Shown here in pieces: positions 13,772 through 42,134 of a stretch of 64,000 nt of DNA; positions within the stretch are counted from its first letter, which is position 1, and every line of letters starts with the position of its first letter. The stretch comes from Haloterrigena alkaliphila (GTDB lineage Archaea > Halobacteriota > Halobacteria > Halobacteriales > Natrialbaceae). The position numbers were made by a program, and so were the translations under genes. The stretch covers positions 1,674,001 through 1,738,000 of the forward strand of contig NZ_CP071462.1 of assembly GCF_017352155.2 (NCBI RefSeq). Direction: 5' to 3'. Below the pieces are notes generated by a model. The model was given only the letters and a program-made list of their open reading frames with translations. It was not told the origin of the DNA and did no database searches.

Positions 13772-15943
13772 CTACGGCGCCGGCGCCTCGCCGTCGTAGG
13801 CGTCGTGGTCGCCGTAGAAGTTGAGCATCGCGAACTTCAGCTTCTCGGGGGCGAGATCGATCAGTTCCTCGCGCTCTTCGTGGGGGAAGGTGCCGTTGAC
13901 GCTGTAGCGGCCGAGATCCGACTTCGCGGAGCGCGAGTAGCGACTGTCGAGCAGCGCGCGGACGCCGACGTCCTCGGGAGAGCGGAGCACGCGGCCCAGC
14001 GCCTGTCTGGTCTTCCGAACGGTGGGAATCTCGACCGCGTAGCGCCAGCCCGTCTCGGTCCCCTCGAAGGCCGCGTCGTAGGCCTCCTGGACCGCCTCGG
14101 CGCGGTCGTCCAGGTGGGGGTAGGGGACGCCGACGACCAGCACCGTGTGGGCGTCGTCGCCGTCGAAACTGACGCCTTCCGCCAGCGTGCCCCAGAGGGA
14201 GGTACAGAGCACGGCGCCGTCGGCCGCGACGAACTCCTGGCGAATCTCCTCGACGGACGTTCCCGGTTCGTCCAGATAGACCGTCTTCTCGATGAGCCCC
14301 TCGAGTCGGTCGGCGTACCGCCCGGCCTCGCCGTAGTTGGGGAAGAAGGCGAGCGTGTTCCCCGGCGTCATCCGGACGGCGTCGCGTATGGTGTCGGTGA
14401 CCCGTTCTTGCACCGCGGGGTCGTCGCGATCCGACGCGAACAGCGGCGGCGTCTCCACGGCGTAGGTGCGGCGCTTCTCCTCGGGGAACTGGAGCCCGTA
14501 GGCCATCGTGACGGGGTCCTCGAGCCCCAGCACGTTCTCGGTGACCTCGAAGGGCTGGAGCGTCGCGCTCATCAGCACCGTCGCGTACACCTCCTCGAAC
14601 AGTCGGCCCGTCACCTGTCGCGGGAGACAGGAGTACAGTTCCGCGCGGCCGTAGATTTCGTCCGTGCCGGCGTCGCGGGTCACGGTGACGACCGGGTACA
14701 GCCCCTCCGCGGAGCCCTCGTTCATCCAGGCGCTGACGAACGCCGCGGCCTGCAGGGTCTGACACTCCGTGCGCGTCGCGGTCTCGCCCTCCCGATACGC
14801 TTCCTCGTACTGCTCGTCTAGCTCCTGGCCGAGTTTCATCGCGGCCTCGAGGTCGTCCTCGATCCCCCGCCCGGAGTAGCGCTGGAGAAACTCGAGCGTG
14901 AGGTCGTCCTTCCGGCCCTCGTTGGCGATGGAGACGTCCTCCCAGTTCTCGCCGATGCGCTCGCGCTCGCCGAAGCCGAAGGAGTCCTCGTAGGTCTCGA
15001 CCAGCGCGCGGTGGAACGCCGAGAGCACGTTCGCGGCGTCCTCCGAGCGGGGGTCGTCGGTGTCGGCCAATTCGTCTAGCGCAGAGTCGAACGTCCGCTC
15101 GGAACAGGTTCGCGTCGCGTGCTCGCGGGCGGCGTCCTCGACGTTGTGGGCCTCGTCGAAGACGGCGATCACGTCCTCCGGGTCGCGGCCGAGCCAGCGG
15201 AAGAACTGCTCTCGAATGGTGGAGTCGAGCAGGTGGTGGTAGTTGCAGACGACCAGATCGACCCCCTCGATCCCCTCCTTCAGGAGTTCGTAGCCGCAGA
15301 ATTGCTGATTCTCGGCGTGCTCGTAGATCTCGTCGGGGGTGCGGACGTCCTCGAAGAGCCACGCGAAGAAGTCGTCCGTGTCTTCGGTCAGGTTGTTCCG
15401 GTAGTAGTCGCAAACGTTCTGCTCCTCGAGATCGTCCAGTCGCTCCTCGATAGACTCGAGTTCGTCCATCACCGCCGAGCGGGCGTCGGCCGCGCCGCCG
15501 TCGCCCTCCTGGCTCTCGGCGAGGAGTTCGCGCTGGCGGCGCTCGAGTTGCCGTTTGTCGCGTTCGGCGTCGACGACGGCGCGGGTGTTGTCCCGCAGGG
15601 CCTGACACTCCTCGTAGCCGACGTCGATGTGGCACATCGACGACTTTCCTTTGAACACGATCGCGCGAATGTCCTCTTCGCGGGTGATCGCGCGGGCTTC
15701 GGCGACGAACTGGCGCATCTGCTGGTGGACGTTGGTCGTGATGACGACCGTCTTGTCGTGCTCGCGGGCCACGTCGAGGGCCGGCACGAGCGACGAGAGG
15801 GTCTTGCCGGTCCCGCAGGCCCCCTCGAAGAGGACGTTCTGTCCCCGGTGGAGGGAGTTGTGGATGCGGTCCATCGCCTCGCGCTGGTTCTCGTACGGCT
15901 GGTCGTACGGGAAAAAGCGCATGTACCCGGCAGTCTCGGACAC
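13772..15943 (-). CDS. XPD/Rad3-like (DinG-type) ATP-dependent DNA helicase
   Basis: This superfamily 2 helicase of 723 residues has a Walker A motif (GACGTGKT, 41-48), DEAH at 263-266 and a C-terminal ALGRVLRSPED motif VI. Four cysteines (C104, C113, C178, C216) between motifs I and II match the iron-sulfur domain of XPD-type helicases. The expected role is DNA repair or unwinding of damaged or structured DNA. The longest start is GTG 15943. The ATG at 15922 (MRFFPYDQ) is also plausible. It is a lone gene. Confidence 0.92.
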   Translation of the reverse strand: MSETAGYMRFFPYDQPYENQREAMDRIHNSLHRGQNVLFEGACGTGKTLSSLVPALDVAREHDKTVVITTNVHQQMRQFVAEARAITREEDIRAIVFKGKSSMCHIDVGYEECQALRDNTRAVVDAERDKRQLERRQRELLAESQEGDGGAADARSAVMDELESIEERLDDLEEQNVCDYYRNNLTEDTDDFFAWLFEDVRTPDEIYEHAENQQFCGYELLKEGIEGVDLVVCNYHHLLDSTIREQFFRWLGRDPEDVIAVFDEAHNVEDAAREHATRTCSERTFDSALDELADTDDPRSEDAANVLSAFHRALVETYEDSFGFGERERIGENWEDVSIANEGRKDDLTLEFLQRYSGRGIEDDLEAAMKLGQELDEQYEEAYREGETATRTECQTLQAAAFVSAWMNEGSAEGLYPVVTVTRDAGTDEIYGRAELYSCLPRQVTGRLFEEVYATVLMSATLQPFEVTENVLGLEDPVTMAYGLQFPEEKRRTYAVETPPLFASDRDDPAVQERVTDTIRDAVRMTPGNTLAFFPNYGEAGRYADRLEGLIEKTVYLDEPGTSVEEIRQEFVAADGAVLCTSLWGTLAEGVSFDGDDAHTVLVVGVPYPHLDDRAEAVQEAYDAAFEGTETGWRYAVEIPTVRKTRQALGRVLRSPEDVGVRALLDSRYSRSAKSDLGRYSVNGTFPHEEREELIDLAPEKLKFAMLNFYGDHDAYDGEAPAP

Positions 15944-37086: not shown

Positions 37087-37516
37087 TCACGAGGGCTCGT
37101 TTGAACTGGGAAGATTCCCGTCGAATTCGTACGCTTCGGCCCAGTTTATCGACGGATGATCGATTTCGGATTCGAATCGCAGTTCCATCTTTTGCTCCGT
37201 GGCCTCGGTCGCATCGATCCAGTAGAACGTTTCTTCTGGCGGGTAATAAACCAGAAACGCGTCAATCTCTCCGTGATACGTGTGTTCGTGATAGGCGCCG
37301 TTTTTGGTCGTCTGCGAGTGGGTATTGAACCGAAACGTGTCGTCTTTGTTCGACCACGCCGTTTTACACTGAACCCGATAGAGGATGCCCCCGTCATCGA
37401 CGACGAGATCGTATCTGTCGTTGTCCCCGAACGGGATCGAGACGCTGTATCCCCATTCGATCAACTTCGAGAGCGCTTTCGACTCGGTCTCGTCCCCGAC
37501 GCTTCGAATTACGCAT
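37087..37516 (-). pseudogene. PD-(D/E)XK endonuclease-like gene with a frame break near its start
   Basis: The reading frame from about 37502 to 37087 encodes VGDETESKAL, IPFGDNDRYDLVVDD and LYRVQCKTAW. These are the E, D and (D/Q)CK catalytic features of the archaeal Holliday-junction-resolvase-like or group I-intron-type PD-(D/E)XK family. The C-terminus (EIDHPSINWAEAYEF) is also typical. That frame has no ATG or GTG upstream of the motif. The only good start, ATG 37516 (MRNSKRR), is in another frame and would join it if one G were missing from the GGGG run. An internal TTG would lose the first catalytic residue. Confidence 0.65.
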
Positions 37517-37661
37517 ACGCCCGTTGCGTCCCTTCTCGGATAAGAACCGTCGGCTGTCGAATACTGCTCGCCGAATCGAACGGGTGGATGTACCGAGGTT
37601 CGGCAACCGTTTCGCCGAAATCAGTCACTCGTTCGTTCCGTGGTTCAAATCCCTTTTAGGA

Positions 37662-37723
37662 TTCTCTCGATTTCAGCCTCACTCGTCGCTACGCTCCTCG
37701 CTCGAGAGTTGAAATCGAGAGAA
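37662..37723 (-). terminator. long hairpin directly 3' of tRNA-Asp copy 1
   Basis: TTCTCTCGATTTCA (37662-37675) and its exact complement (37710-37723) form a 14-bp stem that abuts the tRNA discriminator base. In copy 2 the distal arm is mutated. It could mark transcript termination or processing, or be the scar of an insertion. There is no long T-run. Confidence 0.4.
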
Positions 37724-37796
37724 CGCCCGGAGCGGGATTTGAACCCGCGTCACAACCGTGACAGGGTTGTATGATGGGCCACTACACCATCCGGGC
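37724..37796 (-). tRNA. tRNA-Asp (GTC), copy 1
   Basis: The 73-nt gene folds as a cloverleaf with a GCCCGGA/TCCGGGC acceptor stem, discriminator G and no encoded CCA. The anticodon loop CTGTCAC gives anticodon GTC. The T arm is GCGGG-TTCAAAT-CCCGC. A CTTAAG box at 37825-37830 lies about 31 bp upstream of the 5' end. The sequence is identical to copy 2. Confidence 0.95.
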
Positions 37797-37820
37797 TCGC
37801 AACTCATCGTTTCCCGGTGA

Positions 37821-38027
37821 AACTCTTAAGGGTTCTGTTCCGACTATCATTCGAATTTCTTACTATACAGTGTGGGACGCTTCTCTGTCGACTGTTCTAC
37901 ACTCGAGAGACGTGCCACCAACTCACACTACTCCGCGGATATCGGGTTCTCCCCTCGTTTCCTCAAAATGGATGAGTGCGGGATTTGAACTACGGTTATT
38001 TCGCACATGACGTTCGCCTCACTTCTC
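37821..38027. other. unique spacer between the tRNA-Asp copies
   Basis: No gene is seen in these 207 bases. On the minus strand, 37971-37995 contains GTTCAAATCCCGCACTCATC, which looks like the T arm and 3' acceptor strand of a tRNA and may be a remnant of another tRNA end. Confidence 0.6.
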
Positions 38028-38206
38028 GGTTCAAATCCCTTTTGGGTTCTCTCGCTTTTAGCCCTCGCTCGTCGCTACGCTCCTCGCTCGAGAGTTGAAA
38101 TCGAGAGAACGCCCGGAGCGGGATTTGAACCCGCGTCACAACCGTGACAGGGTTGTATGATGGGCCACTACACCATCCGGGCTCGCAACTCATCGTTTCC
38201 CGGTGA
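38028..38206 (-). repeat. tRNA-Asp segment duplication, copy 2
   Basis: This is the second copy of the segment at 37642-37820. The 3' hairpin arm has drifted (TTCTCTCGCTTTTA), so the 14-bp stem of copy 1 is imperfect here. Confidence 0.9.
38110..38182 (-). tRNA. tRNA-Asp (GTC), copy 2
   Basis: The gene is identical to the copy at 37724-37796, with the same GTC anticodon and no encoded CCA. A TTAAG box at 38212-38216 lies 32 bp upstream, so both copies have a promoter. Confidence 0.95.
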
Positions 38207-38495
38207 CGGTATTAAGACTTTCCAATCGACAACCGTGTGGTACGGTGAATCGAGCCACGAACCGCGACTCGAGCCTCCGTCGTGCTACTCCGTCACACTC
38301 CCCACAAGGAATTTAACGGATACCGGGTAACTGTCGCACGTGATCGGCTCCCTCCGATCAGGGTTGCCCTGGGCGGATAGCCGTGCTTCTCGATCGAGTT
38401 AGTAACCGTTAAATGCGTCCCGCCGCTATTTCGCTGTAGTATCTCGTGACAGCCGCTTCTCTCCCGATAGCCGACACGCACACCAACCCCAACAC
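38207..38495. promoter_or_regulatory. divergent promoter region of tRNA-Asp and the rpo operon
   Basis: The rpoH-side TATA-like box GTTAAATG is at 38408-38415. Transcription would start near 38435 and leave a leader of about 60 nt before the rpoH ATG. That is unusual in a window where most genes look leaderless. No coding frame is present. Confidence 0.5.
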
Positions 38496-38723
38496 ATGGT
38501 AGACGTAAGCCAACACGAACTCGTACCGGAGCACACGCTCCTCGAGGACGACGAACTCGAGGAGGTCCTCTCCGAGTACGACATCGACAGCACAGACTTA
38601 CCGAAGATCAAGCGCACCGATCCCGCTCTGCCGGACGAGGCGGAGGCCGGCGACGTCATCAAGATCGTTCGCGACTCGCGGACGACCGATCAATCGATCG
38701 TATACCGACTCGTGGTGGAATAA
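38496..38723 (+). CDS. rpoH: RNA polymerase subunit H (Rpb5 C-terminal homologue)
   Basis: The 75-residue archaeal subunit H corresponds to the C-terminal domain of eukaryotic Rpb5 and sits in the lower jaw of the polymerase. [27 protein letters not shown] and [19 protein letters not shown] are the family blocks. It heads rpoH-B''-B'-A'-A''-nusA, and its TAA is followed at once by the next ATG. Confidence 0.97.
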
Positions 38724-40304: not shown

Positions 40305-42134
40305 ATGAGCAGCCAAAAGCGAGAAGCCAAGGTGTACGTCAACGGGTCGCTGGTGGGAACACACCCGAACCCGCACGAACTGGCAGAACAGATCCGCGAG
40401 GCGCGACGCATCGGCGACGTCAGCGAGATGGTCAACGTCTCGGTGAAAGACCGCACCCGCGAAGTGATCGTCAACGCCGACGCGGGACGGGCCCGACGGC
40501 CCCTGCTGGTCGTCGAGGACGGCGAGGCTCGCATCTCCGAGCAGGAGATCGAGGCGCTGCGGGAGGGTGACCTCGAGTTCGAGGATCTCGTCGACCACGG
40601 CTACATCGAGTTCATCGACGCCGAGGAGGAAGAGGACATCCTCGTGGCCGTCGACGAGGACGATCTGACCGAGAAACACACCCACCTCGAGATCGACCCG
40701 TCGCTGATCTTCGGGATCGGCGCGGGGATGATCCCCTACCCCGAGCACAACGCGAGTCCGCGTATTACGATGGGGGCGGGGATGGTCAAGCAGTCGCTGG
40801 GCCTGCCCAGCGCGAACTACCGGATCCGGCCGGACACGCGCCAGCACCTGCTGCACTACCCGCAGCTCTCGATGGTGAAGACCCAGACGACCGAACAGAT
40901 CGGCTTCGACGAGCGACCCGCGGCCCAGAACTTCGTCGTCGCCGTGATGAGCTACGAGGGGTTCAACATCGAGGACGCGCTGGTCATGAACAAAGCCAGC
41001 GTCGAGCGCGCGCTCGCCCGCTCGCACTTCTTCCGGACCTACGAGGGCGAGGAACGCCGGTACCCGGGCGGTCAGGAGGACCGCTTCGAGATCCCCTCCC
41101 AGGACGTCCGCGGGGCCCGCGGCGAGGAAGCGTACAACCACCTGGACGAGGACGGTCTCGTCAATCCCGAGACGGCGGTCGACGAGAACAGCGTCCTGCT
41201 CGGGAAGACCTCCCCGCCGCGATTCTTGGAGGAGCCCGACGACATGGGTGGTCTCTCGCCCCAGAAGCGACGTGAGACCTCCGTTACGATGCGCTCGGGC
41301 GAGTCGGGCGTCGTCGACACCGTCACCCTGATGGAGGGCGAGGACGGCTCGAAGCTCTCGAAGGTCTCCGTGCGCGACGAGCGGATCCCCGAACTCGGGG
41401 ACAAGTTCGCGAGCCGGCACGGTCAGAAGGGGGTCGTCGGCCACCTCGCGCCCCAGGAGGACATGCCCTTTACCGAGGAGGGGGTCGTCCCCGACCTCGT
41501 GCTCAATCCGCACGCGCTGCCGTCGCGGATGACCGTCGGCCACATCCTCGAGATGATCGGCGGTAAACTCGGCGCGATGGAGGGGCGTCGCGTCGACGGG
41601 ACGCCGTTCCTCGGCGAGGACGAGGACGAACTCCGCGACGGCCTCGAGGAGATCGGCTTCAACTCGGCGGGCAAGGAGACCATGTACTCGGGGATCTCCG
41701 GCGAGAAGATCGAGGCCGAGATCTTCGTCGGGATCATCTTCTACCAGAAGCTCTACCACATGGTCTCGAACAAACTGCACGCCCGCTCGCGCGGGCCGGT
41801 GCAGGTGCTGACCCGCCAGCCCACGGAGGGTCGCGCCCGCGAAGGCGGCCTCCGTATCGGGGAGATGGAACGCGACGTGTTCATCGGCCACGGGGCCGCG
41901 ATGACGCTGAAAGAACGACTCCTCGACGAGTCCGACCGCGAGTTCATCCACGTCTGTGCGAACTGCGGGATGAGCGCGGTCGAGAACGTCGAACAGCGGC
42001 GTGTCTACTGTCCGAACTGCGACGAGGAGACCGATATCCACGAGATCGAGATGAGTTACGCCTTCAAACTCCTGCTCGACGAGATGAAGGCGCTGGGTAT
42101 CGCGCCGCGACTGGAACTGGAGGACGCCGTCTAA
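40305..42134 (+). CDS. rpoB1: RNA polymerase subunit B' (C-terminal half of B)
   Basis: The 609-residue C-terminal half of B contains the hybrid-binding and active-site lysine region. [19 protein letters not shown] is near residue 157, and [15 protein letters not shown] (catalytic lysines) near 365. The anchor/clamp zinc ribbon is CANCG...CPNC near 547-567. The length is normal. rpoA' starts three bases after its stop. Confidence 0.97.

Follow-up and report, generated by a model that had tools for sequence, protein, structure and literature searches.

The window analysed here is a stretch of 64 000 nucleotides of a haloarchaeal chromosome, that of Haloterrigena alkaliphila (G000:C1:1674001-1738000). 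The part of it described below lies to the left of a group of RNA polymerase genes, the first of which is a short ORF at 38496 that we read, from its translation, as rpoH. Here ARAGORN finds two tRNA-Asp(GTC) genes, both on the minus strand, of the same sequence and with starts 386 bp apart, which bears out the first-pass annotation of this DNA in calling the two genes identical. Behind each of them, reading with the tRNA, comes a hairpin and then GGATTTGAA, which is the reverse complement of the tRNA's own T-loop, TTCAAATCC; downstream of the second tRNA gene, and in the same direction, lies a gene for a PDDEXK_5 endonuclease. In window coordinates the features are:

38110..38182, minus strand: tRNA-Asp(GTC) copy A, the one nearer the putative rpoH (ARAGORN; Rfam tRNA, 62.4 bits)
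38046..38109, minus strand: hairpin 1 of the unit behind tRNA-Asp A (inverted repeat I3)
38030..38038, minus strand: inverted copy of tRNA nt 54-62, the left arm of hairpin 2 of unit A (GGATTTGAA on the minus strand)
37991..38029, minus strand: decayed core of hairpin 2 of unit A (the sequence between both arms)
37970..37990, minus strand: decayed direct copy of the tRNA-Asp 3' end, unit A (identical to the tRNA tail at 15 of 21 nt)
37724..37796, minus strand: tRNA-Asp(GTC) copy B (ARAGORN)
37662..37723, minus strand: hairpin 1 of the unit behind tRNA-Asp B (perfect 14-nt inverted repeat I9)
37644..37652, minus strand: inverted T-loop copy behind tRNA-Asp B (sequence pattern)
37087..37536, minus strand: PDDEXK_5 (PD-(D/E)XK homing-type) endonuclease gene (Pfam PF11645)

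The surroundings of the two tRNA genes are duplicated as well. Repeats of 179 bp had been proposed, and repeats 386 bp apart are indeed present, near-identical rather than identical: 154 nt at 97% (37677-37830 and 38063-38216) and, at the repeat edge, 19 nt at 95% (37642-37660 and 38028-38046). Such high identity would fit gene conversion. Also as first described, a T-arm-like piece lies in the spacer (37970-37990) and a T-arm-like GGTTCAAATCCC stands on the opposite strand at each repeat edge (37642 and 38028); these ‘remnants’ are parts of one small unit behind each tRNA. Behind tRNA-Asp A, the arms of I3 (38046-38067 and 38089-38110) are 82% complementary and match in position the hairpin 1 of other units, and the hairpin signature that we define as GGATTTGAA-N25..55-TTCAAATCC matches at G000:C1:1711981-1712038 (window 37981-38038). 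Behind tRNA-Asp B the remainder of the unit is degenerate and a closing copy of the tRNA tail was not recognised. Both units are degenerate, and neither of the two passes our strict unit test, namely a direct copy of at least 15/20 together with an inverted arm of at least 7/9. Two lone ARAGORN calls elsewhere in the window, tRNA-Ser(CGA) at 15509-15606 and tRNA-Ala(AGC) at 40506-40599 (overlapping the ORF at 40305-42134), lack the T-loop motif at the expected place and are probably false; they were left out, as was a tRNA-Pro(GGG) call in locus L053 that also lacks the motif.

These two units are decayed members of a genome-wide class of small non-coding units of ~100-200 bp. In the 4.27 Mb of the own genome GGTTCAAATCCC occurs 22 times, while a reversed control pattern occurs nowhere; this recurrence is not chance. 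Most of the occurrences belong to tRNA genes or to the units that follow them, many of the places being tRNA genes with a second copy ~80-220 nt behind. Forty-six places in the genome match RF00005, and 37 genes were analysed: the gene's own 3' 20 nt are copied within 330 nt downstream at 15/20 or better in 23 of the 37 and at 17/20 or better in 20, as compared with 7.1% and 1.3% of 1324 control pairs that used the ends of other tRNAs. Given the mismatched-pair rate of 7.1%, two to three of the 23 tail copies could be chance. Across the 23 genes, the acceptor part of the copy is on average identical to the gene's own tRNA at 10.26 of 11 nt and to other tRNAs at 4.33. By the strict test (36 own genes kept), a unit is carried by 20 of 36, 15 of 37 and 20 of 37 tRNA genes in three genus members. 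Also seen, ~1.6 kb behind tRNA-Gly(TCC) and its own unit, was another unit (G000:C1:2722750-2722890; loci L045, L297) whose tRNA-Gly tail is partial.

The anatomy of the units was taken from 96 of them among 185 tRNA records (loci L001-L188), a unit-enriched set in which many loci had been fetched by the signature. Their order is hairpin 1, an inverted T-loop copy of 9-10 nt, a hairpin core, and a direct copy of tRNA nt 53-73. As each unit ends in a direct tail copy, it is bounded by two copies of the tail of its host tRNA, which itself stays whole. Both edges of the direct copy are sharp over the 96 units, identity rising on the left from 0.34 at nt 51 through 0.79 at nt 52 to 0.98 at nt 53 and falling on the right from 0.91 at nt 73 to 0.56 at the next base; the inverted copy covers tRNA nt 54-62 or 63 with equally sharp edges. 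The median period is 131 nt and the median distance from arm to copy is 50.5 nt. While the usual arms read TTTGAAC/GTTCAAA, there are 15 units whose tRNA departs from TTCAAATCC, and here the arm is exact in 11 and has the tRNA-specific bases in 14, the exception being a tRNA-Lys-CTT unit (L117) with an arm of the common form. Inspected by eye, the printed units have no common ends except the T-loop arm. Such an anatomy means that the tRNA tail is acted upon, with nt 53-73 duplicated and the tRNA itself left intact.

The cores are themselves structured. The tRNA-sense strand of 16 representative cores folds with short steps and mismatches, with recurrent 2-bp steps that carry G.A mismatches. 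Among 92 distinct cores, RNAfold gives a C(GNA)G triloop as the apical loop in 42 (GAA 21, GGA 9, GCA 6, GTA 6), the C(GNA)G pattern is counted 47 times on the sense strand and 6 times on the antisense strand, and the sense strand is the more stable of the two in 75, by RNA and DNA parameters alike; near the middle of the core the pattern is found 62 versus 12 times in 120 cores. The DNA sequence d(GCGNAGC) forms an unusually stable single-strand hairpin, and GCGAAGC hairpins have been used in at least some published work; the stable sense-strand fold of the cores would fit either a folded DNA strand or an RNA. Orientation of the core relative to the tRNA was the usual one in 103 of 120 distinct cores and undecided in 14, while three are reversed, which rules out a strictly fixed orientation. 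Compared with their nearest relatives, the reversed cores are those at tRNA-Phe (L057), tRNA-Asp (L020) and tRNA-Ser(TGA) (L130).

The better folding of the tRNA-sense strand, the recurrence of C(GNA)G caps and G.A-mismatch steps, and the mostly fixed orientation would all suit units that function as RNA, that is, as tRNA 3' trailers under selection for termination, processing or a tRNA-like signal, with copies kept alike by gene conversion. However, 16 of 36, 22 of 37 and 17 of 37 tRNA genes in the three genus members fail the strict test (some of these hold decayed or displaced units), dissimilar cores replace one another within the genus, and three of the 120 cores are inverted. Moreover, the acceptor half of the direct copy lies outside hairpin 2, and Rfam covariance models run on 10 loci found the tRNA alone plus one match below the gathering score, and no family to which the units might belong. 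Because the units are absent, replaced and inverted, a trailer function is hard to reconcile with the data, and we give it little chance of being right.

The signature is nearly confined to the order to which this genome belongs, which the named records point to as Halobacteriales. It was found in 36 of 41 related genomes, with a reversed control in none of the 41, and in a phylum-wide sample it was present in 34 of 43 genomes of the order as opposed to one of 203 outside it, again with no control matches. A scan of named genomes gave 120 stretches among the matches listed, of which the 80 with a title were used and the 40 without one left out; 56 of the 80, among the matches listed, were classed as haloarchaeal by title (one, L341, is titled only Euryarchaeota). 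Among these listed matches, a tRNA points at the hairpin from within 450 nt in 52 of the 56 haloarchaeal stretches when ARAGORN allows introns (51 when it does not), the hairpin lying at the end of the stretch in all four misses; the corresponding figures for non-haloarchaeal stretches are two and one of 24, and no listed stretch has only the 5' side of a tRNA near the hairpin. The tRNAs that carry units are of many kinds. The general arm pattern was also matched in two Bifidobacterium genomes. Virus-borne units were considered too, and set aside: of 107 matching stretches from a viral collection, the subset with G+C of at least 50% or with GAGCG/CGCTC held no haloarchaeal unit that could be recognised by eye. 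Six viral contigs (L224, L239, L253, L256, L281, L292) do have palindromes with T-loop arms GGATTTGAACC...GGTTCAAATCC around a core of the CCTCTGG type; in just one of them does ARAGORN call a tRNA, at a position overlapping the palindrome.

Within one genus, units differ between species in presence, in number and in core. At Ala-CGC, the tRNA is bare in G002 and followed by a unit in the own genome (G000), with the shared flank resuming after the copy. At Arg-TCT, G004 has an extra unit of 124 bp that adjoins the tRNA, ahead of the unit that it shares with G002. Over the three pairs of genomes, 9, 14 and 13 isoacceptors have a unit on one side only by the strict test, although some of the flanks scored as absent hold decayed pieces, and in such pairwise comparisons a unit lost through slippage between the 21-bp repeats would leave the same picture as one gained. 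Where both genomes have units, the core is common to two of 14 isoacceptors between G000 and G002, two of nine between G000 and G004, and seven of nine between G002 and G004. These differences suggest that a form of mobile or replaceable DNA, so far unrecognised, occupies the ends of tRNA genes.

Cores also recur behind different tRNAs. In the own genome, those behind the His and Val tRNAs are 97% alike despite differing arms and tails. More broadly, alike cores (score at least 0.7) make up 9.7% of 667 pairs from the same tRNA in different genomes, 6.1% of 197 pairs from different tRNAs of one genome, and 3.3% of 3596 other pairs, a pattern of weak descent by tRNA with much switching; at 9.7% of same-tRNA pairs alike, core type was rejected as a marker of descent. 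Tandem arrays of units have the tRNA at their head: Natrarchaeobius chitinivorans (L333) has three tandem units at tRNA-Asp with exact 21-nt copies, and T-arm motifs are spaced by 157 bp three times in L026 and by 165 bp twice in L024. Nothing mobile would be needed had tandem duplication with template switching at the T-arm made the copies locally, given that a double switch yields the order direct, inverted, direct and that recombination between the repeats explains changes in copy number. Yet such an origin does not lead one to expect core types shared behind different tRNAs and in many genera, nor a constant architecture with exact edges, and we therefore regard it as very unlikely.

The nuclease gene in the window offers another possible agent. 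It matches PF11645 with an E-value of 1.5e-39 (135.6 bits; cut-off 26.1) and PDB 2ost (2ost_A), which we take to be I-Ssp6803I, with an E-value of 3.7e-8, and it lies in an open frame of 177 aa without stops. One plasmid record (from Halorubrum) and 38 phage records, with Halorubrum and Haloarcula viruses among them, match this nuclease at E-values up to 1e-3, all at less than 60% identity. Elsewhere in the family, locus L159 seems to be a more decayed version of the arrangement at L154 described below, and the gene inside a tRNA-Lys gene at L148 (G034:C14, 1433-1959), apparently within an intron near the anticodon loop, is possibly an intron-borne putative homing endonuclease in an archaeal tRNA gene.

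If PDDEXK_5 enzymes cut tRNA genes near their 3' ends, break repair through short stretches of tail homology might make, spread and reshuffle the units. Much about the placement of the genes agrees with this: 24 of 31 PDDEXK_5 loci have the gene on the same strand as a tRNA gene and at most 800 nt behind it, both PDDEXK_5 genes of the own genome lie behind tRNA genes, the gene at L154 (locus reverse strand, 1344-1935) has tRNA-Gly(TCC) on one side and on the other a direct repeat of that tRNA's tail (20 of 21 nt), and that at L148 sits intron-like within its tRNA gene. The numbers agree less well, as the nuclease is present in 31 of 79 genomes of the order versus units in 36 of 41 genomes of another sample, and the own genome has two nuclease genes versus 23 tRNA genes with a tail copy. 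We consider homing of this kind improbable as the source of the units.

The history of the tRNA-Asp pair itself can be followed through its relatives. Two tRNA-Asp genes stand upstream of rpoH in all six genus members sampled, the own genome included. Among 30 rpoH loci, at least two tRNA-Asp genes lie within 1.5 kb in 16 (one of which, L015, has assembly gaps), one in 11 and none in three. Since the pair is common to six of six genus members and to 16 of the 30 loci overall, it is old but not invariant, an invariance among all relatives being what the first-pass annotation had said would speak against its proposal that the locus is a scar left by an excised element. That proposal stands in part: the pieces are what insertion at a tRNA 3' end leaves, but reading the repeat as the scar of one excised element is conjectural. 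That an element had left its scar between these two tRNA-Asp genes was rejected in view of the pair's presence in all six genus members and of the 313-bp spacer, in which no inserted element was recognised. An element may nonetheless once have stood between such pairs, given that two tRNA-Asp genes flank the nuclease gene in six of 31 PDDEXK_5 loci.

Much larger insertions are found at the same tRNA ends. In the own genome the unit of tRNA-Pro(TGG) is displaced by ~19 kb (G000:C1:1647835 to ~1667230; L296, L133), where a tail copy is followed by hairpin 1, inverted arm and core, and a Phage_integrase match (1666522-1666830) lies beside the far end; these ~19 kb are probably an integrative element. 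The unit of tRNA-Arg(TCG) is displaced by ~54 kb (G000:C1 ~2514800 to 2569144; L132, L121), with a tail copy of just 14 nt and integrase matches at 2515280 and 2519654. Both displacements look like large integrative elements inserted between a tRNA and its unit. In all, nine places in the own genome match Phage_integrase, and three of them are within ~1 kb of a unit, at tRNA-Lys(TTT) and at the displaced Pro and Arg units. At tRNA-Lys(TTT) (G000:C1:1150845-1152401), there are two tandem units, and the match lies ~0.9 kb after the first tail copy.

Our favoured reading, to which we give a little less than an even chance, is that the units are non-autonomous insertions moved in trans by a site-specific recombinase at the tRNA tail. 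A unit would move as a cassette by site-specific recombination there, probably through a tyrosine recombinase from integrative elements that insert at these tRNA ends. Hairpin 2 would serve as the folded site of recombination, and an incoming unit would enter next to the tRNA. We favour this because large integrase-bearing elements use the same tRNA ends, because arrays have their head at the tRNA and a folded site ending each module, and because a few cores are inverted, an outcome to be expected if the inverted arms recombine. The three inverted cores among 120 raised our confidence in recombination slightly and lowered that in the trailer RNA by as little. Against it count the tail copies of the large Pro and Arg elements, which begin at nt 59-61 and not at nt 53; likewise, an acceptor copy that nearly always fits the local tRNA speaks against a circle arriving from another tRNA. 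No circle, enzyme or mobilising element for the units was seen.

This fit of the acceptor copy to each tRNA is better explained by an insertion that duplicates its target, whether of a transposase, Cas1-like integrase or reverse-transcription type. The element would then be hairpin 1, inverted arm and core, guided by pairing of the 9-nt arm with the T-loop, and a cut staggered by 21 nt would duplicate nt 53-73. Such an insertion also accounts for near-identical cores behind different tRNAs and for an arm complementary to the target. It requires, however, an unusual duplication, 21 nt being long for known DDE transposases; no linked enzyme gene is known from the profiles searched (PDDEXK_5 and Phage_integrase), and the arm would still need adapting to each tRNA. 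We rate it as unlikely.

We tentatively propose, as a minority possibility, a new mobile system in which tRNA genes throughout the order head cassette arrays of non-coding folded-DNA units, each fitted to its tRNA by the 9-nt T-loop arm. An enzyme with specificity for the folded strand would move and occasionally invert them. In each of the three genus members compared, about one tRNA gene in two is followed by a DNA unit that has precise boundaries and changes fast. Such units matter for the annotation of tRNA genes, for how integration sites are chosen and what their past has been, and possibly for the processing of tRNA 3' ends; haloarchaeal PDDEXK_5 nucleases are now tied to the ends of tRNA genes; and the question of which enzyme duplicates tRNA tails and fits the arm to each tRNA has become testable. 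No description of such units was found in searches of open-licence PMC papers.

Several known systems resemble the units in part. The MITE, PATE and SMR elements of Haloquadratum, and REP elements, are likewise short, non-coding, palindromic DNA, the former of haloarchaea, and SMRs and PATEs are reported to cause no target duplication (PMC3119063). In contrast, the units lie at tRNA 3' ends and have a 21-nt tail copy and an arm fitted to the target. With CRISPR arrays and casposons the units share a copy of the target sequence between modules and, in one comparison, an extra module next to the head; they differ in that the repeat is a tRNA tail and the modules are structured hairpins of shared types. 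The PDDEXK_5 homing endonucleases (2ost) are of the same family as the window gene, which is also sited at a tRNA gene; this gene is, however, free-standing behind the tRNA, with no group I intron seen, and its link to unit movement is putative.

Integron attI/attC arrays are alike in being modular tandem arrays with a fixed head site, each module of which closes with an imperfect hairpin whose tip varies (compare the 16 folded cores and the loops of 92). The unit arrays that were read, on the other hand, have no integrase gene inside them and no cassette genes, and their target is a tRNA gene. The R-box of attC reads RYYYAAC/GTTRRRY, which by eye the unit arms TTTGAAC/GTTCAAA do not fit. Integrons have been reported in Archaea (PMC9668308). 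Finally, tyrosine-recombinase integrative elements (proviruses and plasmids), such as those of the haloarchaeal SNJ2 type, use att sites at tRNA 3' ends (PMC8371274). The units differ from these in carrying no gene, being at ~100-200 bp too short for an integrase gene of their own, in containing two hairpins plus an inverted T-loop arm, and in standing behind many tRNA genes simultaneously. They resemble them in being inserted at a tRNA 3' end, where the tRNA is left whole and its tail recurs beyond the insert: nt 53-73 are repeated on both sides with sharp edges in the 96 units, and Ala-CGC is seen both empty and filled.
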